NCBI RefSeq assembly: GCF_007859855.1
Contig: NZ_SJPK01000005.1
Coordinates: 349,429-413,428, forward strand
Reading direction: 5' to 3'
Source of the DNA: Allorhodopirellula solitaria
Lineage (GTDB): Bacteria; Planctomycetota; Planctomycetia; Pirellulales; Pirellulaceae
Length of the DNA stretch: 64,000 nucleotides
The first letter of the stretch is position 1; every line of letters begins with the position of its first letter. Made by a program: the position numbers and the translations under genes. Below the pieces are notes generated by a model. That model made no database searches and was not told where the DNA came from. It saw nothing but the letters and a program-made list of their open reading frames with translations. Of the stretch, positions 43,460-56,243 are shown piece after piece.

Positions 43460-43833
43460 CAGGACGAATCCAGCAGATCGGGTCAGAGGGTGAAGTGGTT
43501 TTCATCAGAAAGAGAACGCTACGCGTCGGTGCGAATATACGCCTTGACCCAGAATCTGACCACGGGGCGTGAAAATCCCCACCATGAAGAGCCCCACCTG
43601 CTGCACGCTACCGCCTCGACGTCGAAGCCGTCTGCGATGGGTGAGCAGTGCTAGCCGCCACGCATTTTCCCAGAACACCCTAGTAGCGGTGCCATCGTCG
43701 CGCGACCGCTCCGCCGGTCGGTCCCATCCGATGTGCGCTTCGCACGAGACGCTCGCGTCCCCATCCGATCTGAAACAGCCTGCTACCATGCCTGATTCAG
43801 CCCCATTCCTCCGTTAACGCCCGCGATAGCACG
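43460..43833. other. Intergenic stretch upstream of sucC
   Basis: No gene recognised in this stretch of 374 bases. It must hold the sucCD promoter and the leader of the divergent small gene at 43834. Nothing else was seen. Confidence 0.4.
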
Positions 43834-44046
43834 ATGAATTCAACCGCAACATTGGCGCCCCTCGTCCTAGCTTTCATGCTCAACGTCAACCTGCTAGCGG
43901 ACGCGCCCGCAGTCCCCGAGTCTGCGGCCCAAGCAGGCGATGTCGATGCCATCTTTGAGGCCGGCTCAATCGCGCTACTAAACCAGGACTATGCCAAGGC
44001 ATTCCACTGGCTTTCCAAGGGGGCGCAGGCGCAGCACGATTACTGA
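43834..44046 (+). CDS. Short exported protein with a lone Sel1/TPR-like repeat
   Basis: The 70-residue product has a signal peptide (about residues 1-22) and one helical unit resembling a Sel1-like repeat (DYAKAFHWLSKGAQAQ). A stop follows immediately, where further repeats would be expected. It is probably the truncated start of a Sel1-repeat protein, cut at the left border of the repeat-rich island. No continuing frame was found downstream. Confidence 0.5.
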   Translation: MNSTATLAPLVLAFMLNVNLLADAPAVPESAAQAGDVDAIFEAGSIALLNQDYAKAFHWLSKGAQAQHDY

Positions 44047-44137
44047 GAGAGTGGAAAGCGTCGGAGACCGACCGAAACGATTGAAGGGAGGTTGAGATAT
44101 TAGTCCAACCCCTGTTGATTACCCAGCTCCTTTCGGC

Positions 44138-44195
44138 TCATCCGACGGAAGCGTACGCCCGAGGTTTTCAAGGCATGGCTCCAGTATCCAAGGAT
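44138..44195 (-). repeat. Partial copy of the 186-base dispersed repeat
   Basis: The TCATCCGACGGAAGCG stretch followed by a T-rich tract and AGGCATGGCT matches the reverse complement of part of the repeat at 44585-44770. Confidence 0.55.
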
Positions 44196-44258
44196 TTATT
44201 TGTGGGATGTGATTATCAATGTTAGACTGGCACTGCCGGAAAAAACGGAGCCGAGCTC

Positions 44259-44563
44259 GAATGGCGTGGACTTAAGCGATTGCCGCCTGTGAAACATTCT
44301 TCCGTCGAGCTTGTCTCGGCGGAGGAACCAACTGGCAGCTACTGAAAAAATGCGAAGTAGAAACGGTGCTCCGTCTCGGGCTTGCCCCGGCGGTCACACG
44401 ACTTGCTTCGCTGATTCCGCCGGGACAAGCCCGGAGCGGAGATCGATCTGGCGAGGGCGTTTTGCAGGTAGCTTGCAGTTGCCACTCCGCCCGGACAAGC
44501 CGGACGGAAGCGAAAACAGATGCCCGTGAAACTCGAGTAAATCTGCTTAAGTCCACGCCATTA
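44259..44563. mobile_element. MITE-like element with perfect 18-base inverted ends and 11-base flanking duplication
   Basis: The element is 305 bases. Perfect inverted ends AATGGCGTGGACTTAAGC occupy 44260-44277 and 44545-44562. Outside lies the direct repeat GAGCCGAGCTC at 44248-44258 and 44564-44574, as expected for a target-site duplication. Inside are several palindromes of the form GGGC-TTG-CCC or its complement with GGACAAGCC. No open frame of note is present. Confidence 0.85.
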
Positions 44564-44584
44564 GAGCCGAGCTCTGCAGAGGTG

Positions 44585-44770
44585 CTGGCTTAGCAAGGGA
44601 TAGCTCGGTCGCCAGCGTTTCCCTGCAAAAGCGGTACGCCAATGGTGTTGTCGGTCCCTGGCGAGCGTTTGTTCGTCAGGGACGCATTTTTGAGCGATCA
44701 TTGGATACGAGAGCCATGCCTCAAAAAAACTTCCGCTGTGCTCTGCGCACGCTTCCGTCGGATGAACCTT
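44585..44770 (+). repeat. 186-base direct repeat, copy 1
   Basis: Nearly identical to 55654-55839 in the same orientation, with fewer than ten mismatches by eye. It ends just before the small lipoprotein gene. Confidence 0.85.
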
Positions 44771-44844
44771 CCTTTCGCGTCTCGGCTCACGAATGCGACA
44801 GCCTGGAAAGCCGATGGTTCACAACTCGCCTGGTCGACAAACTC

Positions 44845-45312
44845 ATGATGCGAATCACTGCGTTAATCTTCGTCGCCGCGTTTGCCGGTTGTTCTCGGTC
44901 GTCGGCCCCACTTGAGCCACTGCGTGACGCAACGTCGCTGGAGCTCTATTCACTCGATCCGACGGAGCGAACTGATTTCGACAAAACCACCGGCTTTCAT
45001 GGCTGGAAGGTTCTTGGGAAGACCACGGTAAAAGACGCCAAGACACTTTCCAATCTAACGGATGCTCTTGCAGCCGGGATTGCAGAGAACGACGGGATGG
45101 TTTCCGCCTGCTTTGATCCACGTCATGGGATCCGGGTGAGCGTCGATGGCCAACAAGTTGACTATGTGATTTGCTTCCACTGCTATTCTGCTCGATGGTA
45201 TACAGACGGCGATCAGAACGTGGGATTCTTGACCACGGGATCACCTCAGCCGGTATTCGATCGAGTCTTACGCGACGCGTCCGTTGAGATTGCTGCTGCC
45301 GCACCAGACTGA
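44845..45312 (+). CDS. Small lipoprotein of unknown function
   Basis: From the ATG at 44845 the product has 155 residues, with a signal ending FAAFAGC-like (VAAFAGC at about residues 11-17), a lipobox-like site. The in-frame extension upstream to 44701 is repeat sequence and is unlikely to be translated. The mature part contains a C-F-H-C pattern (VICFHCYS) and a DP-H motif but no known domain. It lies inside the accessory island between repeats. Confidence 0.55.
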   Translation: MMRITALIFVAAFAGCSRSSAPLEPLRDATSLELYSLDPTERTDFDKTTGFHGWKVLGKTTVKDAKTLSNLTDALAAGIAENDGMVSACFDPRHGIRVSVDGQQVDYVICFHCYSARWYTDGDQNVGFLTTGSPQPVFDRVLRDASVEIAAAAPD

Positions 45313-45456
45313 TCAATGCCGCGAACCAACTTCCTCACGGTATTGGATACCGGCAATGCCTTGCAAACCGAACCCTCCACGCACTCGATAGCGGACACTT
45401 TGTCTGTTCGGGCTGCCTGGAAAGGTCCAGCGGATATGGCCGCTGGGAACCCTGTC

Positions 45457-45625
45457 ATTACCCACAAGTATCCCGTTAGGGATTGAAGAGAATAGCCGTA
45501 GGTCAGCGCAGCGCCACCTGCGGTGTATCGTTGGCCGTGGAACGTCGACCCCGAAGTGGGTCGCAGACCTCGTCGTGGACGATCTGCACCCGCATTCGGG
45601 GTTGGCATGCGTGTTTCTCGGTGGC
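45457..45625. repeat. Dispersed repeat family copy, inverted
   Basis: Matches the right half of the copy at 33260-33591 in reverse complement, including the CCCACAAGTATCCCG start, the GACCCCGAAGTGGGTCGCAG core and the CGAATGCGGG-type stretch. It carries no gene. Confidence 0.75.
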
Positions 45626-45634
45626 TAGAAGTAG

Positions 45635-46203
45635 GTAGATTAAAGACAGGCAATGAATAGTTGCCTTCGATCGCGGCTTGCATACCATTGCCGATGGTTC
45701 CGCTACTCGAAACCGTGACGCTGACGGAGTCGATAAAGATGCCCAGGCAAGCTCGTGGGGAAATGATCGATCCGAATGAGGTTCAGATCCTCCACTGTAT
45801 CGCAAGGCGTGGCTCTGTTGGACCGATCCCGCTATGGGAGAGTGTTTCGAGCACCACAGGGGCTGGATCCGCGACCGAATGGAATTCCTCGCCTCCGTGT
45901 TCGCGATCGATTGCCTGACGTTTTCGATCATGAGCAATCACCTGCACCTCGTCTTAAGAAGTCGCCCGGACGTCGCGGTCAAGGTTGGCTCTGCGCCCGT
46001 GACAACCCACTCGGGATATCTTCGGCCTGACCGTCTTCGGAAAACCTTCCACTTTGATTCCCTCCGGGGTCGCTGCTGCGCCGATATCGGAGAATCGGAT
46101 CAGAATCAACCCGATGCTCGGTGGCGGCGTTCTGCGAGGCCCCGATCGTAGTTAAATCGGCCGAAAAACAAGCCGCAGCCTGGGCTGAAAAGTGGGTGGC
46201 CCT
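45635..46203 (+). repeat. Duplicated RAYT segment, shortened copy
   Basis: This segment matches 53519-54588 at both ends, starting at a GTAGATTA stretch and ending at AAGTGGGTGGCCCT, but has lost about 500 bases internally. It shows that the transposase gene spread with about 100 upstream and 170 downstream bases. Confidence 0.8.
45739..46030 (+). pseudogene. RAYT-type HUH transposase remnant with internal deletion
   Basis: The start ATGCCCAGGCAAGC and the end at the TGA at 46028 match the intact gene at 53623-54414. Compared with that copy there is a small deletion near 45800 and a 487-base deletion at the CGTCG of 45971, which shifts the frame. The remaining active-site region keeps the histidine pair of the HUH motif (NHLHLVL), but the tyrosine-bearing helix and the rest of the domain are gone. 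It should not produce a working transposase. Confidence 0.85.
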
Positions 46204-46271
46204 CTTTCTTCCGGTTTCTGCGAAGGCCATCGGGATGAAGGGAAACGGAAAACGACCTGACTGCAATTGAG

Positions 46272-47135
46272 CTAGCTCAGAGGATGAACGGCTCCTTTTG
46301 TCACCTGGTAGCTGTACGTTTCCACGAGGAAATCGACGGCGGTGTGAGACGCGTTCACCGTTAGTTTTGCGTGATGGCGAGTTGGCTTGAACGAGCGTGC
46401 GTGAGCGTCGCTCATCCGATTCCTGATTGGTGCAATGCCGTTAACGATACTGGATAGACCAGCGAGAACTTGTCTCAGTGAATCGGCGACGTCTGGACGG
46501 CTCGGTTCCAGGTTCAACGCTTTTTGAACTCGTTTGAACAGCTTTCCGAGGTCACCATCTGCTTTCTGAGGTTCAGCGATTAGTCGAACCTGGATCTCGG
46601 ACAATACCGCCTCCAGCAAGGATCTTGCGTTGGTGATGGCACCGTCGTAATCCTCGTCGCGGATCTTGACTCGGCATTTGTAAAGTTGCTCTTCGACGAA
46701 CTCTTGAGCCAGAGGGTCGACGGCAATGGTGATATCTTCAACTTCAACAAGTGAATCATCAGCACGAGCCATCCGATAGCGATTGCGAGACGAAACCAGT
46801 CGCAGCCCGTCAAACGCCAGGTACTTGTTGATGTACTCCACTGCTTGCTCAACACCGCCGTCGAATTCAAGAAAATGGGCAGGGTCCACCGCCGCCTCGA
46901 CCGCTTTCCACTGCGTGTCTTTGTCGAGTGCCCGGAGCGAGTCCTTGGCGTAGACGTGTCGTGAAGGGAACCCTCCTCCGTAAACGTCGTTGCATCCAAA
47001 ATCGGCGAAGAAGTCAATCAGCTTTGGGCCAGACCGATACGGGGCAAGAACGTCGCCTGATGCAGTTGGGTTGCCTGAAACGACAAGTTCTATTGCGTTG
47101 ATCGCTCGTTGGCTAAGTTTGTCACCGTTGTGCAT
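46272..47135 (-). CDS. Abortive-infection C-terminal (Abi_C)-type protein
   Basis: The 287-residue protein has an unrecognised N-terminal half and a C-terminal half (about residues 155-280) like Abi_C: DYDGAITNARSLLEAVLSEI, LGKLFKRVQKALNLEPS, then SSIVNGIAPIRNRMSDAHA with the RN..(S/G)DAH signature. In this family the RN...H motif suggests a HEPN-like RNase, used against phages or in toxin-antitoxin-type defence. It has no signal or membrane segment. It is divergent from the integrase at 47348, within the AT-richer insert. Confidence 0.75.
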   Translation of the reverse strand: MHNGDKLSQRAINAIELVVSGNPTASGDVLAPYRSGPKLIDFFADFGCNDVYGGGFPSRHVYAKDSLRALDKDTQWKAVEAAVDPAHFLEFDGGVEQAVEYINKYLAFDGLRLVSSRNRYRMARADDSLVEVEDITIAVDPLAQEFVEEQLYKCRVKIRDEDYDGAITNARSLLEAVLSEIQVRLIAEPQKADGDLGKLFKRVQKALNLEPSRPDVADSLRQVLAGLSSIVNGIAPIRNRMSDAHARSFKPTRHHAKLTVNASHTAVDFLVETYSYQVTKGAVHPLS

Positions 47136-47306
47136 CTTTCCCCTTCGTCGTTATCTGGCATTTGAATGTTAGAAACACGTAGCGCGGCAAAACACTCATC
47201 GCGTTCGCTCTCGTCGCCCTGTGTTTTCTGTAGCGTACTTTCGAGGGGGCGTCCGTTTATCAAATGTGCTCGTTCCCGTCTTTTCAGCCCCCCGCCATTT
47301 AGGGCA

Positions 47307-47324
47307 TGATAAAGGGAGTTATCA
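47307..47324. promoter_or_regulatory. Inverted repeat between the Abi_C and integrase genes
   Basis: TGATAA and TTATCA flank AGGGAG in the divergent intergenic stretch, just before the integrase ribosome binding site. It could be an operator or a small hairpin; this is unproven. Confidence 0.3.
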
Positions 47325-47332
47325 GGCATTAA

Positions 47333-47339
47333 AAGGAGG
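47333..47339 (+). promoter_or_regulatory. Strong ribosome binding site of the integrase
   Basis: AAGGAGG, eight bases before the ATG at 47348, is a textbook Shine-Dalgarno site. Resident genes in this window mostly have weak ones, so it supports a foreign origin of this gene. Confidence 0.8.
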
Positions 47340-47347
47340 CCAGGCAA

Positions 47348-48316
47348 ATGGGACGCGATTTAGCTGTGATCAGCTCCAAGGAGCTTCGGGAAACGGAAAT
47401 TCCATCCTTCATTGCTTCACCGGGGCATCCAGCGGCGACCCCTTTTCGCGATTTTTTCTTCGGCCAAATAGGAAATGCCAACACGCAGCGAGCGTACTGC
47501 CGTGCAGTGGAGCAGTTCTTGACTTGGATTGCCGCTCAAGGCCTTGCGCTTGTCGAAATTCGCCCGGCAGATGTTGGCGCCTACCTGAGGCAGCACCCCG
47601 GGGCAACGAGTATCAAAAAACAGCATCGTTCGGTCATCAAGCAGTTTTTAGACTTGCTCGTAGAACGGCACGTTTGCCTGATCAACCCGCCTGCATCCGT
47701 GAAAACTGAAAAGCTGCGAGTAAATCAAGGCAGCACACCGGAAATCGCGAAGGGTGAGATTAGAGCGGTACTTGAAACGCTTCAAGGAAATAGCCTCAGC
47801 CAAGTTCGTGATCGAGCGGCAATCGGCATTCTCGTCTATACTGCCTGTCGCAAAGGGGCTATTTCGAACCTACGGCGAAGTGACTTTCACGGCAGACCCG
47901 GTCAGAGGGCTCTTCGTTTTCAAGAGAAGGGCAGCAACAACCAAAGTGCTGAAGTGCGTCATGATCTTGAAGCCTGGGTAAATGAGTACATTAGGCAGGC
48001 GGGTCTGGGCGAGGCGAATCCAGCCAGTCCCCTCTTTCGTCCACTTGTTCGTCGCGAAGAGCGATTGCAGAATAGGCAGGTGGAAGCAAATGGCGTTGGC
48101 CGCATGGTAAAACGAAAGCTTCGGCAAGCAGGAATTCGCACCGAACTCTCAGCTCACAGCCTTCGAGTTGCCACAATCACTGATTTGATCAGCCAAGGTG
48201 TTGACATTGCTTCGGTCCAAGAGCTTGCTGGGCACGCAGACGCAAGGACAACGAAGCTTTACGACCGCACAAGCAGAAGAGCAACTCGCAATCTGGTTGA
48301 ACGGATAAGCTTTTGA
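47348..48316 (+). CDS. Tyrosine recombinase (phage/XerC-type integrase)
   Basis: The 322-residue protein has the two-part layout of tyrosine recombinases: an N-terminal SAM-like core-binding domain (about residues 30-120; NTQRAYCRAVEQFLTWI) and a catalytic domain. Active-site residues are seen: Arg in TACRKGAISNL, a lysine-bearing beta-hairpin (FQEKGS), HSLR in SAHSLRVATI, and the GHADARTTKLYDR block with His and the nucleophilic Tyr. These enzymes cut and rejoin DNA through a phosphotyrosine link. It is 89 bases upstream of the ABC-3C genes on the same strand, and may move them. No att sites were found by eye. Confidence 0.93.
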   Translation: MGRDLAVISSKELRETEIPSFIASPGHPAATPFRDFFFGQIGNANTQRAYCRAVEQFLTWIAAQGLALVEIRPADVGAYLRQHPGATSIKKQHRSVIKQFLDLLVERHVCLINPPASVKTEKLRVNQGSTPEIAKGEIRAVLETLQGNSLSQVRDRAAIGILVYTACRKGAISNLRRSDFHGRPGQRALRFQEKGSNNQSAEVRHDLEAWVNEYIRQAGLGEANPASPLFRPLVRREERLQNRQVEANGVGRMVKRKLRQAGIRTELSAHSLRVATITDLISQGVDIASVQELAGHADARTTKLYDRTSRRATRNLVERISF

Positions 48317-48405
48317 CACACCAAAACGTGTTTCTTGACCTGATCCGTTCTTGAGTGCTTCGATACTACCTGCTACCGACAAACTAAAAACTGATTTCCG
48401 AGTCC

Positions 48406-49371
48406 ATGACGGCAATGAGCGATTCCTACGACAGCTTGACACCAGAGCAGCAATTGTACTCACGCGCAATGTTCAGGAGCAAAATCTACCAATCGGATGG
48501 CCAGCGTTACCAGGACTTGTTCGTGGAGGTTATGACACTTCGCGACGTTCGCTTTCGTCCAGTTAAGCCGCAAGGACAAAAAGGAGACCAGGGCAATGAC
48601 GGGTATATTCCGGAAGATGGGAAGTACTTCCAGGTTTATGCACCAGAAGATGCAAAGTCGAAAATCGCAACAGCTGCAAAAAAAGCAAAGGATGACTTTG
48701 GAAAGCTGAAAAAGCACTGGGAAAAAGATGCTCCGATCACAGACTATCGCTTTGTCCATAACGACAAATTCAAAGGCTCGTTTCCAGATATTGAGCACGA
48801 ACTGGCAAAAATTAAGAAAACGCATTCACTGACGGTGTCCAAGGCATTTCTGGCGAAAGACTTAGAGGCAGAGTTCTGTAAGCTGCGGAAGTCTGAGATG
48901 GAAGCCGTTTTGCAGGCCGTCATACCCCGGGCACATGACATTGCAGACATCGATTTCGGAGTCTTGACGGACGTGCTTCAGCATCTTGTTGAAAACCAGC
49001 AACCCGTGGATCATGAAGCCATGAATAGTGCACCTGAATTCTATGAGAAAATTGAATTCAACGATATTAAATCTACGACTCCACTGCTGACCGTCGGAAG
49101 CTATCAGAATGCTGCTGTCGAGCAGTTTTTCAATCAGCACGGTGAATTCACCAAAACAGATATACGCAATCGTCTCTCTGAGAGCTACGAGTCTTCGAAA
49201 CACATGGTTGCTGAACAAGATTCTTCACATCTTGCAGTTGGAGACTGTGTGTTTTTTGATCTGCTGCATAATATAGCTCCCGATAACACCAGAGCGGTTC
49301 AGGATGCCACGATTGTTTTAATTGCATACTTTTTCGAGAAGTGCGATGTCTTTGAGGAGCCATTGCGATGA
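48406..49371 (+). CDS. ABC-3C effector: nuclease-like N-terminus with ABC-3C C-terminal domain
   Basis: The 321-residue protein has an N-terminal part (about residues 20-130) with a restriction-nuclease-like pattern: GDQGNDGYIPEDGKYFQVYAPED, including Asp and a basic or Gln-x-Lys-type strand, then a lysine-rich helix. The C-terminal 150 residues resemble the C-terminal domain that links effectors to ABC-3C complexes. In such systems the effector is thought to be held by the ATPase and middle component until triggered by foreign nucleic acid. The stop overlaps the next start (ATGA). No signal peptide is present. Assignment is by family pattern, so the nuclease label is provisional. Confidence 0.7.
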   Translation: MTAMSDSYDSLTPEQQLYSRAMFRSKIYQSDGQRYQDLFVEVMTLRDVRFRPVKPQGQKGDQGNDGYIPEDGKYFQVYAPEDAKSKIATAAKKAKDDFGKLKKHWEKDAPITDYRFVHNDKFKGSFPDIEHELAKIKKTHSLTVSKAFLAKDLEAEFCKLRKSEMEAVLQAVIPRAHDIADIDFGVLTDVLQHLVENQQPVDHEAMNSAPEFYEKIEFNDIKSTTPLLTVGSYQNAAVEQFFNQHGEFTKTDIRNRLSESYESSKHMVAEQDSSHLAVGDCVFFDLLHNIAPDNTRAVQDATIVLIAYFFEKCDVFEEPLR

Positions 49372-49631
49372 CATTCCATTTGCTACCACAAAAGCATGTC
49401 CGTCCTTCAGAGTCGCTGCTCGGAATTGGAGCAGTAGTTCTGAAGTCGCTTAACGACCGTCCGAAATATCTAGATGAGGTATGGAGTGACGTACAGAAGA
49501 CTGAAGCGATCAAAATACGGCTGCACGGTTCGGTGTCACTCGACACAATCGTTTTGGCAATCGATTTTCTCTATATCGTTGGAGCAGTCAAACTCAACAA
49601 ACGCGGGCAGCTTGAACATGCGTCTAATTAG
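49368..49631 (+). CDS. ABC-3C middle component
   Basis: The 87-residue protein is small and helical, with a winged-helix-like end (TEAIKIRLHGSVSLDTIVLAIDFLYIVGAVKL). It is located exactly between the effector and the ATPase, overlapping both (ATGA at the start, 14 bases at the end). That position, size and fold match the short middle components of ABC-3C systems, thought to connect the ATPase with the effector. Confidence 0.75.
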   Translation: MTFHLLPQKHVRPSESLLGIGAVVLKSLNDRPKYLDEVWSDVQKTEAIKIRLHGSVSLDTIVLAIDFLYIVGAVKLNKRGQLEHASN

Positions 49632-51351
49632 CCTCACAGCCAACAAAGAGTCCTTTCGTGCGGTTGAGTTTAATCGCAGTGGGTTGACGCTTATCGTTGG
49701 AAAAAAATCAGACCCAGATGACCGGTCACGTGAGCACAGCACCAATGGTGTTGGAAAATCGCTGCTGCTATATCTGATCAACTTTTGTTTGGGGGCGGCA
49801 GAGAATCCCCAACTGACGGAGCACCTTCCTGGCTGGGAATTTACCCTTTCTTACGAGCAAGGATCGGACACGTATGCAGCTACACGTGCAACAAATGTTC
49901 AAAGTAAGGTCGTGGTGAACGGCCAGACCAAGGGGTTGGACGAGTTCAAACTTAGCTTGGGGGAAGACGTATTTGGTATTGGCGAAGAGCCAATTAAGTT
50001 TCTAACCTTCCGAACTCTGGTTAGCCTTTTTTTGCGTCAGGGAAAACCAGCGTACGCCTCGTATGAATCAACAGCTAAGAATGAACGGCAGTACTCGAAG
50101 CAACTGCGTTCCGCCTATCTGCTTGGTTTGAACGAAACACTAGTAGACAGGAAGCGTGATCTAAAAGACGAAAAAGACCGAATCAAGTCGATTCGATCGC
50201 AGTTTAAGAAGGACTCGTTGCTTAGGGACTACTTCCATGGAGAGCGAGATGCTGGCTTGGAGCTTCGTGACCTTGAAGAAGATATCAAGAAACTTGAAAT
50301 CGAAGCAAGCGATTTTCGCGTGGCGGACAACTACGAAGAAGTGACAGCGAAGCACGACGCGGTACGTCGTGAATGGAAACAGGCAAGTAATGAACTTGAT
50401 TCTCTGCAGAGTTCTCGCAGGCAGATTGAGCAATCGCTGAAGGAGCAGCCTGATGTCTCGCTTGAAGAAGTCGCTCGCGTCTACGAGGCAACGGAAGTCT
50501 CACTCCCTGAATCAGTAGTCAAGCAACTACACGATGTCGAAGTATTCCATGAAGAACTAACTGCGATGAGAGCTGTTCGACTTACAAAGGAGAAGCACAG
50601 CGTCGAGCGTCGCATATCTGATATAGAGGCACTAATTGAATCGCTGAACCAAAAGAAAGACGAGTACTTCAAGTTTCTTGGGTCTCACGGCGCACTACAG
50701 GAATATGAAACACTGCTGAACACGCTTGCGGATCGTCGTCAGGTTGCTGCGAGACTAACTGAGTTTCAAAGGCTTAAGAAATCGTGCGACGAACGCTGGC
50801 AACGCAATAAGTTGGAAATGAGTGAAGAGGCAATTCGCACTTCTGAATACCTTGAGGCTGCCGATGCGATTACTAATGCATTAAGCGATCGGTTCCGTTC
50901 CATGGCACGGAGGATATGGCCTCAGAAAACGTCAGGACTGGTGATCGAAAACAATGACGGCGACAACCAAATACGATTTGATATCGACGCGAGGATTGAA
51001 GGCGATGCTTCTGATGGAACTGCTGAATCAAAAATCTTCTGCTTTGACATGACAGTTCTAATTGAAGGGAGGAATCACTCAATGAAATTCCTGATGCACG
51101 ATAATCGACTCTATCCAGGTATCGATCCACGGCAACGGGCTGAGCTTTTTCGCGTCGCAAGTGAGCTTTCGGAAAAGTATGACTGTCAATACATCGCATC
51201 ATTGAACGAAGACAACTTGGCTGCCATGAAGACAATCATGGATGACAAGGAATATGAGTCATTGCTTATCTCGAAAGTAGAGCTTGAGCTGATGGACGAT
51301 TCTGCTGCCGGCAAGCTCCTCGGGATCACGGTAGACCTGAAGTACAACTAA
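49618..51351 (+). CDS. ABC-3C ATPase (DUF2326, SMC/RecN-like)
   Basis: The start is the ATG at 49618 (577 residues), inside the end of the middle-component gene. The frame is open further upstream but only over that gene. Walker A is seen as NGVGKS at residues 43-48. A long coiled coil spans about residues 180-400. The C-terminal half has the DUF2326 pattern (FLMHDNRLYPGIDPRQRAELF, then QYIASLNEDNL). Such SMC-like ATPases form the motor and sensor in ABC-3C conflict systems. Lower GC content than its neighbours and the adjacent integrase suggest it was acquired. A Walker B or signature motif is not obvious, as usual for this family. Confidence 0.8.
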   Translation: MRLISLTANKESFRAVEFNRSGLTLIVGKKSDPDDRSREHSTNGVGKSLLLYLINFCLGAAENPQLTEHLPGWEFTLSYEQGSDTYAATRATNVQSKVVVNGQTKGLDEFKLSLGEDVFGIGEEPIKFLTFRTLVSLFLRQGKPAYASYESTAKNERQYSKQLRSAYLLGLNETLVDRKRDLKDEKDRIKSIRSQFKKDSLLRDYFHGERDAGLELRDLEEDIKKLEIEASDFRVADNYEEVTAKHDAVRREWKQASNELDSLQSSRRQIEQSLKEQPDVSLEEVARVYEATEVSLPESVVKQLHDVEVFHEELTAMRAVRLTKEKHSVERRISDIEALIESLNQKKDEYFKFLGSHGALQEYETLLNTLADRRQVAARLTEFQRLKKSCDERWQRNKLEMSEEAIRTSEYLEAADAITNALSDRFRSMARRIWPQKTSGLVIENNDGDNQIRFDIDARIEGDASDGTAESKIFCFDMTVLIEGRNHSMKFLMHDNRLYPGIDPRQRAELFRVASELSEKYDCQYIASLNEDNLAAMKTIMDDKEYESLLISKVELELMDDSAAGKLLGITVDLKYN

Positions 51352-51789
51352 ATAGCTTGTCGTGAGAACTCTAGCGCGCAATTCGCTTCGCGTATCCCTT
51401 TTTTGTTGCTTACTTCATCTTCGAACGATATTTGTGACGGAATGCGATATTCGTATTCTCTAAGTTCATGAAAATACTCACAGACGCTATCCGGGACATC
51501 GAGATTTCCCAGGAAAGAATCGTGCGCAAATAGTCCACCATTGCAGGAGTTCCCGGTGACGGCTGTTTTTGTGGGATCGTGGGGTCAGAAGTGCGCGGAG
51601 TTGGCTTTGCAGTACTAAAACATTCGCGATCGCCCGCTTTGTGACTGAATTTTGGCTTGAAATTGAGCTGATTCGACGGGAAGAGCCCGAGGGACACAGC
51701 ACCTTGCTAACGAATTTGACTTCGCTTAGGCGAGGGGACAGGTTAAATTTGACGCTTGCGGCAAATTTCCTGAAAATGCGAGGTGAGTG
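51352..51789. other. Stretch between the ABC-3C genes and the RAYT gene
   Basis: These 438 bases hold no gene I can support. Base composition changes from the AT-richer ABC-3C gene to the GC-richer transposase within it, so a border of the insertion may lie here. Confidence 0.4.
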
Positions 51790-52678
51790 ATGAGTCGGAT
51801 GGTCCGTTGTGAGGTCTTTGACCCCGAGGAAGTAGCGATCGCCCACGTTTACACCCGCGTCTGTCGCCGATGTTTCCCTCTCGGCGATGATCCGGACTCT
51901 GGGAAGAACTTCGACCACCGGAAAGTCTGGGTTGAAGAATATTTGCAGCAATTCGCAGCCTATTTTGGGATCGACCTGATCGACTTTGCGATTCTCTCAA
52001 ATCACTTCCATTTAATCCTCCGATCGCGCCCGGACGTCGTGGCGACGTGGACGGATGAGGAAGTGGCGCGGCGGTGGTTGATGTTGTGCGCCCATCGCCG
52101 GAAAGCGGATGGAACGCCCATGCTTCCGACCGATCCTGAGATCCAATCCATCGTCGGATGTCCCATCAAACGCGAGGAAATCCGCCATCGGCTGAGTAGT
52201 TTCAGTTGGTGGATGCGGTTGCTGTGCCAGCGTGTGACGATGCGAGCCAATCGCGAAGATGACCAAACGGGCCGGTTTTTCCAAGATCGATATCACGCGA
52301 CGCGTTTAGCCGACGAAGCCTCGTTGCTGGCCTGTGCTGCCTACGTGGACTTGAATCCAATTTGGGCGGCGATGGCTGAAACCCTGTAGCGACAAAGGAT
52401 TCTTGGCGATGCCGATCGAGGATTACTTGGAACTGCTGGACTGGACGGCCCGACAGACCGCGCCCGGTAAGCGTGGCCGCACGCCTGCAGAGATCCCGCC
52501 GATACTGGTTCGGCTGGGACTGGACCGGACGACTTGGTGTGAATTGGTGAGCGACTTTGGGCGTCTGTTCTGCTGCGTGGCGGGACGTCCTGAATGTGTC
52601 GACTCAATGCGATGTCATCGAACGTGCCGTCGCTATCACCTTCGCCGCCGCGCCCGTGAACTGCTGACAGCCGATTAG
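51790..52678 (+). pseudogene. RAYT-type HUH transposase with frameshift near the C-terminus
   Basis: The first part runs from the ATG at 51790 to a stop at 52387 (199 residues). It has an intact HUH motif (SNHFHLILRSRPD) and the ACAAYVDLNPI block near its end, as in REP-associated tyrosine transposases. The C-terminal domain continues in another frame at about 52403-52678 (PIEDYLELLDWT...FGRLF...AG). A one-base shift near 52390 separates them, so the gene is probably broken, although the catalytic domain is complete. It is a different RAYT from the two copies at 45739 and 53623, about 40 percent alike by eye. Confidence 0.8.
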
Positions 52679-52937
52679 CGACTCTCACCCATCTTCGGAT
52701 GCAGAAATCGGCGGTAGGGAACCGAAGATAGAAAAAGTGCGCGCTGAAGTAGGCTAGGCAAGTTGATCCGAGCGGCACTTGTTGTGCGCCCGAGCTGACC
52801 AATCGTCGCCTCGGCCGCCATTGGCCATTAATCCAATCAAGCCAATATTGACTCGGTCGACAAAGTGCCATGTCCCTCTGGTTCTCCCTGGTTGCTCAGT
52901 CAATCAGACCTTGCCAGTCCGCACGTTCATGCGATTG
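52679..52937. other. Gap between RAYT remnant and toxin remnant
   Basis: Nothing recognised in about 260 bases. Confidence 0.4.
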
Positions 52938-53228
52938 TTATTTGCGATTCTGAAGTTCGCCTTCGTCTTGTCCGCTAGTGAATAGGCCAACCACTATCAG
53001 CAAATCGCTGTCCAAGCGAAAGTATAGAACCGCCGTGAAGCGTTTCAACCGACAGGGCCTCTATCCCGTATGATCGGGCGCAAAGAAACTGGGGTTTGCC
53101 TTCACTCGCTCAAGCGTGCAATAGAACTCGGCCTCAAACTTGTCCCCCAAACCGAAAGATATACCGTCGAACCAGTCAATTCCATCTAAAAGATCAGTCT
53201 TCGTGTACTTTGAAAGCTTTGCCTTCAT
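52938..53228 (-). pseudogene. RelE/ParE-type toxin with an in-frame nonsense codon
   Basis: Reading down from the ATG at 53228 gives 55 residues with the RelE/ParE pattern (DLLDGIDWFDGISFGLGDKF, then RVKANPSFF), then a TAG at codon 56 (53061-53063). The same frame continues for 40 residues with the conserved ending (LKRFTAVLYFRLDSDLLIVVG) to the TAA at 52938. The likely ancestral codon is Tyr, giving a GYR stretch. The start overlaps the antitoxin stop (ATGA), so the pair was an operon. The toxin should be inactive unless the stop is read through. Confidence 0.85.
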
Positions 53229-53452
53229 CGACGACGTGCCAATCGAACTTGTTCCCTAAAATCATCCTCCGATAGCGCTGACGCTGGGTCGTCCTTGTAC
53301 TCATCCCAACGCCGGTTTAGCTCGTCACGTTGCGCGGATGAAAGCTCTGTTCCAACATCGCTTGGCAACCTGTTCCATATCGCCTGCACGACGCGCAGTT
53401 GGTCGAGGTGTGAAAGGGCTGAAATATCCCTAATTGCTTGTTCTACGGTCAT
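53225..53452 (-). CDS. Putative addiction-module antitoxin (PF09720-type)
   Basis: The 75-residue protein matches the small addiction-module component family: an N-terminal helix with SALSHLDQLRVVQAIWNRLP, then an acidic, alanine/serine-rich end with WDEYKDDPASALSEDDF. Such proteins bind and neutralise RelE/ParE toxins and repress their own promoter. The partner toxin next to it is broken, so this antitoxin is an orphan survivor. Confidence 0.8.
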   Translation of the reverse strand: MTVEQAIRDISALSHLDQLRVVQAIWNRLPSDVGTELSSAQRDELNRRWDEYKDDPASALSEDDFREQVRLARRR

Positions 53453-53518
53453 TAGTTGCCTCCGGTGGAATGTCGTATTTTAGCATAGAGTGTTCGGGGA
53501 CGCTAGGAAACGCTTGGA

Positions 53519-54588
53519 GTAGATTAGGGACAGGCAATGAATAGTTGCCTTCGATCGCGGCTTGCGTACCATTGCCGATGGTTCCGCTACTCAAAACCGT
53601 GACGCTGACGGAGGTGATGAAGATGCCCAAGCAAGCTCGTGGGGAAGTGATCGATCCGAATGAGGTTCATATACTCCACTGCATCGCGGAGTGCGTCAGT
53701 AAGTCGTGGCTCTGCGGGACCGATCCCGCTACGGGAGAGTGTTTCGAGCACCGCAGGGGCTGGATCCGCGACCGAATCGAGTTCCTCGCCTCCGGGTTCG
53801 CGATCGATTGCCTGACGTTTTCGATCATGAGCAATCACCTGTACCTCGTCCTAAGAAGTCGCCCGGACGTCGTCGCGGCATGGTCGGACGAGGAGGTCGC
53901 CCAGCGTTGGCTGCGGCTGTTCCCCGCGTGTCGCAACTCTGACGGCAGCCCTGCCGTGCCAACGACGGCGGAACTGAACACGATCCTGAATCAGCCGGAG
54001 GTTCTAGCCTCGCGGCGTCAGCGATTCTCTGACGTGAGCTGGCACAGGCGCTGTCTCGCCGAGAATATTGTCCGCCGCAGCAACGCCGAGGATTCCGTTA
54101 CCGGCCACTTTTGGGAAGGGCGTTTTCGGGCACAGGTGCTCCTCTATGAAGCGAGTTTGTTGGCGTGTGCGGCCTACGTGGATCTCAACCCGATTCGTGC
54201 CGCCATGGCGGAAACCCCTGAATCAAGCAAATACACCGGAGCCAAGGATCGCATTGGCTTGAATACCCATGCCTGGTGCGACGTCGTGAGCCGATTTGGG
54301 CGAGTGTTCGAGCGAGCAGCGGGTAGCCCAGAACACCTCGCCGAGGAAGCCGGCCGTCGCGGTCAAGGTTGGCTCTGCGCCCGTAACAACCCACTCGGGA
54401 TATCTTCGGCCTGACCGTCTTCGGAAAACCTTCCACTTTGATTCCCTCCGGGGTCGCTGCTGCGCCGATATCGGGGAATCGGATCAGAATCAGCCCGATG
54501 CTCGGTGGCGGCATTCTGCGAGGAGCGGATCGTAGCTAAATCGGCCGAAAAACAAGCCTCAGCCCGAGCTGAAAAGTGGGTGGCCCTC
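53519..54588 (+). repeat. Duplicated RAYT segment, full-length copy
   Basis: This 1070-base segment contains the complete RAYT frame and matches 45635-46203 at both ends. The upstream part starts with GTAGATTAGGGACAGG. Confidence 0.8.
53623..54414 (+). CDS. RAYT-type transposase with changed HUH motif
   Basis: The start is the ATG at 53623, eight bases after a GGAGG site; earlier in-frame starts are less well placed. The 263-residue protein follows the REP-associated tyrosine transposase pattern: an N-terminal strand, the HUH-type motif, a variable helical part, then the VDLNPIRAAMAETPE block. In the HUH motif the second histidine is Tyr (NHLYLVL; codon TAC at 53842-53844); the other copies in this window have His. 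Metal binding should be impaired, so this otherwise full-length gene may be inactive. Start and stop are intact. Confidence 0.82.
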   Translation: MPKQARGEVIDPNEVHILHCIAECVSKSWLCGTDPATGECFEHRRGWIRDRIEFLASGFAIDCLTFSIMSNHLYLVLRSRPDVVAAWSDEEVAQRWLRLFPACRNSDGSPAVPTTAELNTILNQPEVLASRRQRFSDVSWHRRCLAENIVRRSNAEDSVTGHFWEGRFRAQVLLYEASLLACAAYVDLNPIRAAMAETPESSKYTGAKDRIGLNTHAWCDVVSRFGRVFERAAGSPEHLAEEAGRRGQGWLCARNNPLGISSA

Positions 54589-54796
54589 CGTTCTATATGT
54601 CCGTCGCTGACCCCACACAAAGCTCGCCCAAAGGAGCCTGCTTTTGTCATGCCTGTAGAAACGGTACCGGACACCTTAATCTTGCTCGGACACCTTAATC
54701 TGGGTGCGATCCGCTTGATGCGCTCGACGAGTCCTGCATCACGCTGTTTCCAAATTGATAAGGTCGCCGACGGTCAGTTTTGACTGGAGCCAGTTC
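54415..54796. other. Downstream flank of the RAYT copy and a short direct repeat
   Basis: The first about 170 bases belong to the duplicated RAYT segment. A 14-base direct repeat, CGGACACCTTAATC, occurs at 54668-54681 and 54687-54700. No gene is seen. Confidence 0.5.
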
Positions 54797-54973
54797 TCAT
54801 AGACAGCATCCCACACTCCACTGAGCAGATCCGAGGATGAACGCCTGAGCTAAAGAAACGGGTGAAAACTTCCTAACGCGTTTGACGCATTTGGCGACAT
54901 CATTGGCCTCAACGGCAACGGTCGAAAAAGTGGTCTGTAGTAAATCGGCCAGCGCTGTTACTCTGTCCATGCG
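54797..54973 (-). pseudogene. Possible IS4-type transposase N-terminal fragment
   Basis: Reading down from the ATG at 54973, about 58 residues resemble the N-terminal helical part of IS4-family transposases (VAKCVKRVRKFSPVSLAQAFILG). The frame stops and no DDE catalytic domain follows. The match is weak and by eye; an unrelated small frame is possible. Confidence 0.35.
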
Positions 54974-55059
54974 GAAACTCCGTTCTCCGAGGTGACGAGG
55001 TTGCAATTCAAGTCACTTTATGAACGGTTTTCCGCTTTTTTTATAGATCAATCCTTAAC

Positions 55060-55298
55060 TTGATGCCTATGCGGTCATCGCAACGCCACCTACGGTTGTT
55101 CGGCGACGATGGAGCGTCGACCCTGAAGTGGGGCGCAGCTCCCGTCGTGAATGATCTTCAGCTCCATTCGGCGTTGGCTCTTGAGTCTCGCGTCTTATCC
55201 GGTGGTGTTCGCTTGCACTCAAACGAACGGCTATTTTCTATCATCCCTGACGGGATACTTGTGGGTATTGAACAGCTCGCTGCTTCGTCCAATACGAC
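55060..55298. repeat. Dispersed repeat family copy, inverted
   Basis: Matches the left two thirds of 33260-33591 in reverse complement, including the GGGATACTTGTGGGTA end and the AACACC/GGTGTTCGCTTG block. Confidence 0.75.
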
Positions 55299-55653
55299 AC
55301 TGACTTCTCCCCCGTTCCTCAGTGTGCCAAGCCCTTAGTGTGCCAAGTTCGGCGGGCGCAACTACTCCGCATTGCTCTTCAGAGCCGACGGCAATCGACA
55401 GGCTGGATCGCCGCCGGCAGCGCCACGAACCAGCGGTGATCGCAATGTCGTTTACTCGCAAATTATCTTGCCCATCCGGGTTTGTCGTGGATAACGCCAG
55501 CGTATTGAATTTTAGAGGCATGGCGGTGGCGTCCGAAATGAGCGATGCCGTCACAGAATAAATGCTGGCGGCGGACGCGTCCGCCGCCAGCCGAAGTCAC
55601 CTTTCGGCTCATGTGCGACTGAGTAATCCCAGACAAGGTGCTTCCCAGCAACG

Positions 55654-55839
55654 CTGGCTTGGCAAGGGATATCTCGGTCGCCAGCGTTTCCCTGCAAAAG
55701 CGGTACGCCAATGGTGTTGTCGGTCCCTGGCGAGCGTTTGTTCGTCAGGGACGCATTTTTGAACGATCATTGGATACTGGAGCCATGCCTCAAAATACCT
55801 TCCGCTGTGCTCTGCGCACGCGTCCGTCGGATGAACCTT
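55654..55839 (+). repeat. 186-base direct repeat, copy 2
   Basis: Same orientation as 44585-44770, about 11 kb away, with fewer than ten mismatches by eye. The two copies bracket most of the accessory island and could serve for homologous recombination. From 55845 to about 55911 a further fragment resembles part of 33260-33591. Confidence 0.85.
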
Positions 55840-55922
55840 ATTTGGCACCGAAGGTGTTTTAGAAAATAGCCGTGGTTTGAGTTCAAGTGAACACGACCGG
55901 AAACGTCTTCAGGGTTTGCCCA

Positions 55923-56243
55923 TCAAAGGGTCGGCAGCCGATTGCGGATAATCTTGGTGGTCGGATCGCCGGGCATGATGGTATCGCACCACATCTCGCC
56001 CTCGAAAACGTATCGCACTTGAATTGCTTGGGCGTCGCCGGTTGCGAATGCTTCTTCGGCGGCCGCCAGTGGGACGGTTGCATCGGTGGCCGAGGAACGC
56101 AACTGCACGTGTTGCACGTCCGCGCCGGCGGCGAGGTCGGCGAACAGCTGCAGCACTTGATCCTTGGCCCATTCGGCTTGCAGGATCTCGGGAAGGGGTT
56201 CGTTGTTTTCGAGGTCTTCGAGTTTCAGCTTTTGCGAGCTCAT
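55923..56243 (-). CDS. Small protein of unknown function in the nap operon
   Basis: The 106-residue protein begins at the ATG at 56243, overlapping the stop of the NapG-like gene (ATGA). It is acidic, with no cysteine motif apart from one CDT and no signal. The end (MWCDTIMPGDPTTKII) is unrecognised. The tight overlap shows it belongs to the nap operon. It could be an assembly factor; this is inference from position. Confidence 0.6.
   Translation of the reverse strand: MSSQKLKLEDLENNEPLPEILQAEWAKDQVLQLFADLAAGADVQHVQLRSSATDATVPLAAAEEAFATGDAQAIQVRYVFEGEMWCDTIMPGDPTTKIIRNRLPTL

Follow-up and report, generated by a model that had tools for sequence, protein, structure and literature searches.

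The ABC three-component (ABC-3C) systems have been placed in the Lamassu superfamily (PMC10586767), whose Lamassu members (LmuA-LmuC-LmuB, or DdmABC) are outlined there as an SMC-like ATPase, a small middle subunit and an effector with a variable N-terminus. The same review reports that Walker B carries an E-to-Q change and that many LmuB proteins, although not all, have a zinc hook. Here we describe an operon of the ABC-3C kind in a 64,000-nucleotide stretch of Allorhodopirellula solitaria DNA (the window), where it directly follows the gene for a tyrosine recombinase that appears to have its own recombination site. Tyrosine recombinases that resolve plasmid multimers, such as Cre with loxP and MrpA with crs, are plasmid-borne, work as a single recombinase and use a short dyad site, and the recombinase of the window may be likened to them in these general features. 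XerS, as outlined in PMC2958812, is a published precedent for a single tyrosine recombinase gene adjoining its own dif-like site.

The original prediction for this stretch, made from its letters, was an ABC-3C conflict system linked to an integrase that might be its mover. We consider it reasonably probable that the operon is an intact ABC-3C (Lamassu-superfamily) system, acquired horizontally and probably from a plasmid, and that the recombinase is resolution-type baggage or perhaps a co-selected partner, and not the mover.

The ABC-3C operon

Judged by its sequence, 48406-51351 is a complete and clear member of the ABC-3C systems, a known kind. The forward strand encodes an effector with a restriction endonuclease (REase)-like N-terminal domain and a CTD10 domain (48406..49371; PF20275, 2.2e-12), the 87-residue middle component 6 (MC6; 49368..49631; PF20293, 3.8e-20) and a 577-residue SMC-like ABC ATPase with a DUF2326 C-terminus (49618..51351; PF10088, 1.5e-30). 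The ABC-3C identity that had been proposed holds, since the profile search placed CTD10, MC6 and DUF2326 in curated families and PADLOC agrees: its profile PDC-M68A matches the effector (3.5e-14) and PDC-M68B the ATPase (1.1e-94), which also has a weak match to LmuB (6.7e-12). The five genes of the block, these three and the Abi_C and recombinase genes upstream, are full-length open reading frames, and the Pfam matches of all five (Abi_C, Phage_integrase, CTD10, MC6 and DUF2326) are above the gathering score. The operon order of effector, middle component and ATPase, the ATGA that joins the effector to the middle component, the 14 bases (49618-49631) shared by the middle component and the ATPase, and the Walker A motif NGVGKS in the ATPase are all as predicted.

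The closest described systems are therefore ABC-3C systems with CTD10, MC6 and DUF2326 (PADLOC candidate PDC-M68; annotated by NCBI as "ABC-three component system"), which have the same families, the same order and the same overlapping frames. The window differs from other CTD10 systems in that a gene for a XerD-like recombinase, together with the site of that recombinase, lies upstream of the operon, and its effector is 54-61% identical to those of its closest relatives, three planctomycete loci from metagenome-assembled genomes (MAGs), compared with 34.5% to the best plasmid one. It is not a Lamassu system in the narrow sense, as the LmuA and LmuC profiles had no match up to E 1 and LmuB matched weakly.

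Like LmuB, the ATPase has a Walker B substitution. In an alignment of 11 sequences N43..GK47 and H494-D495 are kept, and the expected Walker B glutamate is replaced by N or S, so that the probable Walker B is HDN without the catalytic Glu. This suggests slow hydrolysis, as in a switch and not a motor. Unlike many LmuB proteins, the ATPase has no zinc hook CxxC in this alignment. Searches of PDB sequences with the effector and the ATPase gave no meaningful match.

The effector N-terminus

A conserved motif, the predicted fold order and near-misses in Foldseek lend weak support to the earlier suggestion of a restriction-like effector N-terminus. The motif, GD..DG..FQx[YFH][AG]P, was seen in 22 aligned effectors, with D61 conserved in 20, D65 in 21, G66 in 20, Q76 in 18, P80 in 19, K93 in 21 and N119 in 20 of 21. 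The catalytic pattern D...(E/Q)xK is absent, because the lysine position of QxK is Tyr, Phe or His in 20/22 effectors; K93 in the next helix, conserved in 21/22, is a candidate for a migrated lysine. AlphaFold2 models (five sequences) had a predicted local distance difference test score (pLDDT) of 65.5 for the whole effector and a mean pLDDT of 80.2 for the N-terminal domain. In the model of this domain, two helices precede strands, a further helix and a strand, an order that fits the restriction-like alpha-beta-beta-beta-alpha-beta core. Its best Foldseek matches were FokI (1.8e-3), EcoT38I (0.06) and Shedu (0.09), and the whole chain gave Mus81-Eme1 (0.017) and also FokI. Taken together, these results favour, without proving, a restriction-like nuclease in which the lysine has been displaced.

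Seven Klebsiella phage records (H51-H57) have a protein that matches the N-terminal part of the effector at 38% identity over 43% of the query, and the CTD10-bearing C-terminal domain had no match in these seven records.

The recombinase and its dyad

The 322-residue recombinase (47348..48316, forward strand) is XerD-like. It matches Phage_integrase (PF00589, 3.6e-19) and the XerD structure 1a0p (7.5e-14), and from the 1a0p alignment we assigned a complete catalytic set of R168, K194, H270, R273, H296 and Y305. It shares with XerS the arrangement of a single gene adjoining its own site, but it scores far better with the XerD profile (8.6e-29) than with XerS (9.6e-12), both below the curated cut-offs, and its homologues are found on plasmids and in island-like loci.

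When we compared the 260 bp upstream of 19 homologues of this recombinase, we found a shared dyad that is roughly TA..GC..GAYAA-AGGACG-TTRTC..GCRTTA. The copy in the window (47300..47331, forward strand), directly 5' of the recombinase gene, is an imperfect dyad with arms of ~13 bp and the 6-bp centre AGGGAG, and is the putative core site of the recombinase. A strict form of the pattern had 12 matches in 60 genomes, 7 of them beside recombinase homologues, compared with 3 for the reversed control pattern, and exactly one match in the A. solitaria genome itself. Two of the seven (G050:C182 and G021:C382) had not been used in defining the pattern.

A matrix built from 22 sites, which scores the window copy at 38.4 bits (36.4 leave-one-out), found one site per locus and nothing else at 20 bits or more in 2.4 million scored positions, a number that includes overlapping loci and, for eight loci, 20-40 kb of sequence further downstream. 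All but one of the 22 training loci score at least 23 bits, and at least 17 bits when left out; the exception is L062 (1.5 bits left out). Held-out loci have sites of at least 17 bits in 4/10 planctomycete and 6/8 plasmid cases. Weaker candidates lie just 3' of the recombinase gene in the held-out planctomycete loci L027 and L038, and the plasmid loci L142 and L143 have 9.1 bits and nothing over 9, respectively. The best score among 35 ABC-3C loci without this recombinase was 13.8 bits.

The two arms vary together. Within the sites 204/286 pairs are complementary compared with 158.8 when permuted (p<=5e-5). Since the first set of dyads was picked by eye, the inner positions are favoured in this count; at the outer nine positions of 19 non-redundant sites the result is 106/171 compared with 73.8 (p<=5e-5). 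The 8 plasmid sites, including two from PALBO2 and the weak L142, give 82/104 compared with 58.8 (p<=1e-4). Arms that differ between loci yet change together are as expected of a dyad that would be read by a recombinase, or of a folded hairpin. Because the dyad lies between divergent genes and just before the Shine-Dalgarno sequence of the recombinase, it is plausible that the recombinase regulates itself. We found no Rfam match in 43500-56000 that would make the dyad a known RNA family. In a search of 40-60 kb for a second copy, a 16-mer with up to 5 mismatches had 6 other matches, compared with 8.6 in shuffles.

Between two loci from the same genus (L052 and L053), DNA identity of ~85% extends over the recombinase gene, the dyad and an aminotransferase-like gene, and is lost at the 3' end of the recombinase gene.

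Plasmid and defence context of the recombinase homologues

The closest named relatives of the recombinase, at 35-46% identity, are on complete plasmids of Paludisphaera, Frigoriglobus, Aquisphaera, Isosphaeraceae EP7 and Singulisphaera; Sphingobium pUT1 and a plasmid of Aromatoleum carry further ones (34.6-36.3%). Several of these plasmid homologues have RepA, ParAB, RelE/ParE or VapBC genes nearby, and others have ordinary metabolic genes. Scans of pPL17-1 (whole), pEP7_03 (85% of it) and pUT1 (94%) each gave a single dyad, and one dyad per plasmid fits dimer resolution. The site is beside the recombinase gene or its operon and normally present once per replicon, and the recombinase and dyad together look like a plasmid-resolution pair, putatively of a single-recombinase, own-site type. 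The exception is PALBO2 of Paludisphaera (L139), where the recombinase gene is bracketed by two dyads (19267 and 21849) that agree in orientation and 6-bp centre but differ in their arms.

In planctomycete genomes the genes 3' of the recombinase homologues include strong PADLOC matches in at least 5 of 19 loci, namely DrmD, SspH (SspG was also hit), DpdE/DpdF, HmaA/HmaB and a type I methylase. One further homologue locus has a gene for a NACHT protein. The loci with DISARM-, Ssp-, Dpd-, type I R-M-, Hma-like or NACHT genes directly 3' are L049, L050, L051, L055, L067 and L060. PADLOC was run first on 10 proteins chosen as defence-like and then on 36 (5') and 40 (3') proteins from the 19 loci, which are nearly all of those of at least 300 residues in the neighbour listing. 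We took the defence loci from the 10-protein scan because the wider scans name families and not members. On the 5' side the families among the matches listed (25 of 32), each hit by 3 of the 36 members, are kinase-type.

A second neighbourhood with both a recombinase homologue and an Abi_C homologue was seen in L061 (6817-7728 and 16520-16849, ~9 kb apart).

Phage records match the recombinase at only 24.5-31.6% identity. Short-pattern scans of viral_contigs gave no relative of the recombinase or the effector, so phage carriage was rejected as a candidate.

Recombinases upstream of plasmid ABC-3C systems

What is unusual in the window is a recombinase with its own dyad directly 5' of an ABC-3C operon, and a recombinase in this position recurs on plasmids with unrelated recombinases. 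A site-specific recombinase is encoded immediately 5' of the operon in 7/22 plasmid regions that carry an MC6-type ABC-3C system, compared with 2/147 of the other neighbours (Fisher 7.5e-6; 6/22 and 3/147 when only co-directional genes are counted, 1.6e-4). Two of the seven are tyrosine recombinases from Hymenobacter, 23-24% identical to that of the window; the others are serine recombinases, found in Yoonia, Paracoccus, Arthrobacter and two species of Phaeobacter. The Arthrobacter gene is divergent from its ABC-3C genes, the other six are co-directional, and in Phaeobacter inhibens and Yoonia the recombinase stop overlaps the effector start (TGATG). The two recombinases among the 147 other neighbours are from Paenarthrobacter and Arcobacter.

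The Fisher test overstates independence, because the seven cases are related and collapse to ~4 lineages (Hymenobacter, Phaeobacter/Yoonia, Paracoccus and Arthrobacter), for which upstream compared with downstream is 4 to 0 (p 0.125). The 22 regions, of mixed effector types, were drawn from the records of 45 ATPases and 120 effectors with distinct genera favoured; near-duplicates from Phaeobacter, and most of the records from Streptomyces, Agrobacterium and Rhizobium, were left aside. The 147 neighbours were counted by hand from tables, with transposases not scored as recombinases. We found no title or abstract that reports this arrangement, although the original ABC-3C paper may already note it.

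Ten other planctomycete MC6 loci, which are genome contigs (four of them over 1 Mb), have no recombinase in the stretches scanned. Nine of the ten lack the effector type of the window, and L179 is the only one that scores like it (2e-87). On two plasmids (L153 and L154) a gene for a RelB/DinJ-type antitoxin is directly 5' of the ABC-3C genes, with no toxin gene annotated alongside.

Composition and translation signals

The AT-richness that had been noted for the block is real, with z scores for GC at third codon positions (GC3) of -3.0 to -5.3 relative to 25 background genes of the window (GC 0.589, standard deviation 0.021). The three ABC-3C genes have a GC of 0.46-0.48 and GC3 z of -4.8 to -5.3. 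The recombinase (GC3 z -4.7) and Abi_C (GC3 z -3.0) genes have a higher overall GC of 0.53-0.54, so parts of the block may differ in age, and transfer of the whole set as a single cassette, as originally suggested, is only a possibility. The flanking transposase-like open reading frames have host-like composition. The recombinase gene has the strong Shine-Dalgarno sequence that had been claimed for it, AAAGGAGG, but the claim that this is unlike its neighbours is only partly right, because Abi_C also has a purine-rich stretch in that position, AAGGGGAAAG.

Flanks and distribution

The Abi_C-domain protein (46272..47135, reverse strand, 287 residues) is encoded divergently from the recombinase. 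Its Abi_C domain (PF14355, 4.4e-19) is at the C-terminus, and the PADLOC AbiJ profile (1.2e-28) aligns over residues 96-273 only. On both sides of the block are copies of a multi-copy Y1/REP-transposase-like element with 26 partial matches in the genome, an internally deleted copy on the left (45635..46204, forward strand) and a fuller copy on the right (53519..54588, forward strand). They are direct repeats, 93-95% identical and 7.9-8.4 kb apart. A diverged third copy, a Y1_Tnp-like open reading frame (51787..52389, forward strand; PF01797 4.5e-4, below the gathering score; GC 0.564), is near the right compositional border.

A 45-nt inverted repeat (45455-45499 and 55227-55271), 87% complementary and nearly 10 kb apart, brackets the whole variable region. 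At 52950-53452 on the reverse strand, a putative antitoxin gene (Unstab_antitox, 7e-11) is followed by a RelE/ParE-like frame, recognised by eye, with an in-frame stop; this looks like a decayed toxin-antitoxin pair. The window has no tRNA, so tRNA-based integration was rejected.

The window is part of a 446-kb contig. Its left flank has sucC, a gene present in 13/13 genomes of the genus, and the sucC neighbourhood suggests that the contig is chromosomal. What looks like a plasmid arrangement is thus seen in a contig that is apparently chromosomal.

The expected strain specificity was borne out by related genomes. The ATPase has matches in 7 of 60, including its own genome, with the other matches 23-30% identical; in the 12 other genomes of the genus it has matches in two, at 25-29%, and Abi_C has none at 1e-10. 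Recombinase homologues (31-44%) are in four of these 12. In the 11/11 relatives fetched (G006 was left out), the DNA match ends at 43.46-43.57 kb and the right flank was not found within up to 20 kb, apart from one stray 57-bp match in L107. The region is therefore variable, but no clean empty site can be demonstrated. The ABC-3C operon of L010, one of the three planctomycete MAG loci, is preceded by a leuS-like gene (recognised by eye).

Origin and function of the locus

In the mechanism we propose, ATP would bring two DUF2326 ATPases together, which would detect DNA that is foreign or aberrant, while the small middle component would keep the effector silent through its CTD10 domain. After sensing, the REase-like N-terminus of the effector would be released to cut DNA, so that the cell would be killed or the invader cleared. 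The dyad, in the promoter region of the recombinase gene, is probably bound by the recombinase itself, which would have accompanied the operon as baggage from plasmid maintenance or perhaps as a co-selected partner.

Several results weigh against this interpretation. All Foldseek matches of the effector stay above E 0.001, with Ras-like folds scoring little worse than the best ones, and with the QxK lysine replaced in 20/22 effectors the effector could be inactive or act otherwise. Four of the 10 held-out planctomycete loci (L063, L028, L041 and L042) are without a site, although L028 and L041 have less than 180 bp of upstream sequence to scan, and PALBO2 has two sites instead of one. The recombinase is unmatched in the three MAG loci with the closest ABC-3C systems (tblastn 1e-4; L011 shows ~0.6 kb upstream). 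Planctomycete recombinase homologues have 3' defence genes in at least 5/19 loci, which would also fit cargo capture. The plasmid origin of the window copy is indirect, because we saw no recognisable rep, par or transfer gene around the locus.

The original prediction that the recombinase may be the mover found no support. As an integrase it would have inserted a circular cassette of itself and the defence genes, leaving the dyad as one end (attL). The dyad is indeed on the outer side of the recombinase, the DNA identity of G005 and G006 spans the site and the recombinase and ends at the 3' end of the recombinase gene, and the asymmetry between 3' defence genes and kinase-type 5' families is the best argument for cargo capture, for which we keep this alternative. 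However, a search for att duplications found no second site sharing the core and thus no attL/attR pair. There is one site per chromosome-like locus, with nothing else over 20 bits in the 2.4 million positions and a single strict match in the A. solitaria genome, and both arms are conserved as a dyad, unlike the hybrid arms of attL and attR. The recombinase family is plasmid-type with its own dyad, and the three ABC-3C proteins of the window are unmatched in 20 recombinase-homologue loci (tblastn 1e-4). We therefore consider the recombinase improbable as the mover. Nor is it proved to be a bystander, since unrelated recombinases are found directly upstream of MC6-type systems on plasmids at a higher frequency than expected.

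Pure chance is somewhat unlikely, that is, that the recombinase, Abi_C and ABC-3C genes gathered separately in a hypervariable, Y1-transposase-rich spot with no functional tie. The difference in GC between the Abi_C and recombinase genes and the ABC-3C genes, the dispersed repeats that flank the block, and the lack of a recombinase both at the closest ABC-3C relatives and at the 10 planctomycete MC6 loci (9/10 with another effector type) would all agree with it, but the 7/22 plasmid regions with a recombinase immediately 5' (2/147 elsewhere) and the TGATG overlaps in P. inhibens and Yoonia speak for a tie. It is very improbable that homologous recombination between the Y1-transposase-like repeats on either side delivered the block or makes it unstable; the repeats are in direct orientation, 93-95% identical and 7.9-8.4 kb apart, but the left copy is internally deleted, the element is dispersed in the genome, and no empty site was found in 11 relatives of the genus.

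Beyond the resolution-type baggage or co-selected partner that we favour for the window, it is conceivable, although quite doubtful, that resolution-type recombinases are functional partners of one branch of ABC-3C, forming a plasmid self/non-self or guard system that was assembled repeatedly from unrelated recombinase families. The recombinase would keep the carrier replicon monomeric and occupy its own palindromic core site, and the ATPase would watch for whatever has escaped the recombinase, be it a dimer left unresolved, a Holliday junction, an exposed hairpin or a rival plasmid, and then fire the nuclease.

What ABC-3C and Lamassu-type systems sense is unsettled. A plasmid branch directly behind site-specific recombinases, the substrates of which are dyads and junctions, offers a concrete and testable link between sensor and trigger. 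The recombinase and dyad also form a definable family with a site that is predictable from sequence, and this pair may mark plasmid-derived, defence-rich segments in planctomycete genomes.

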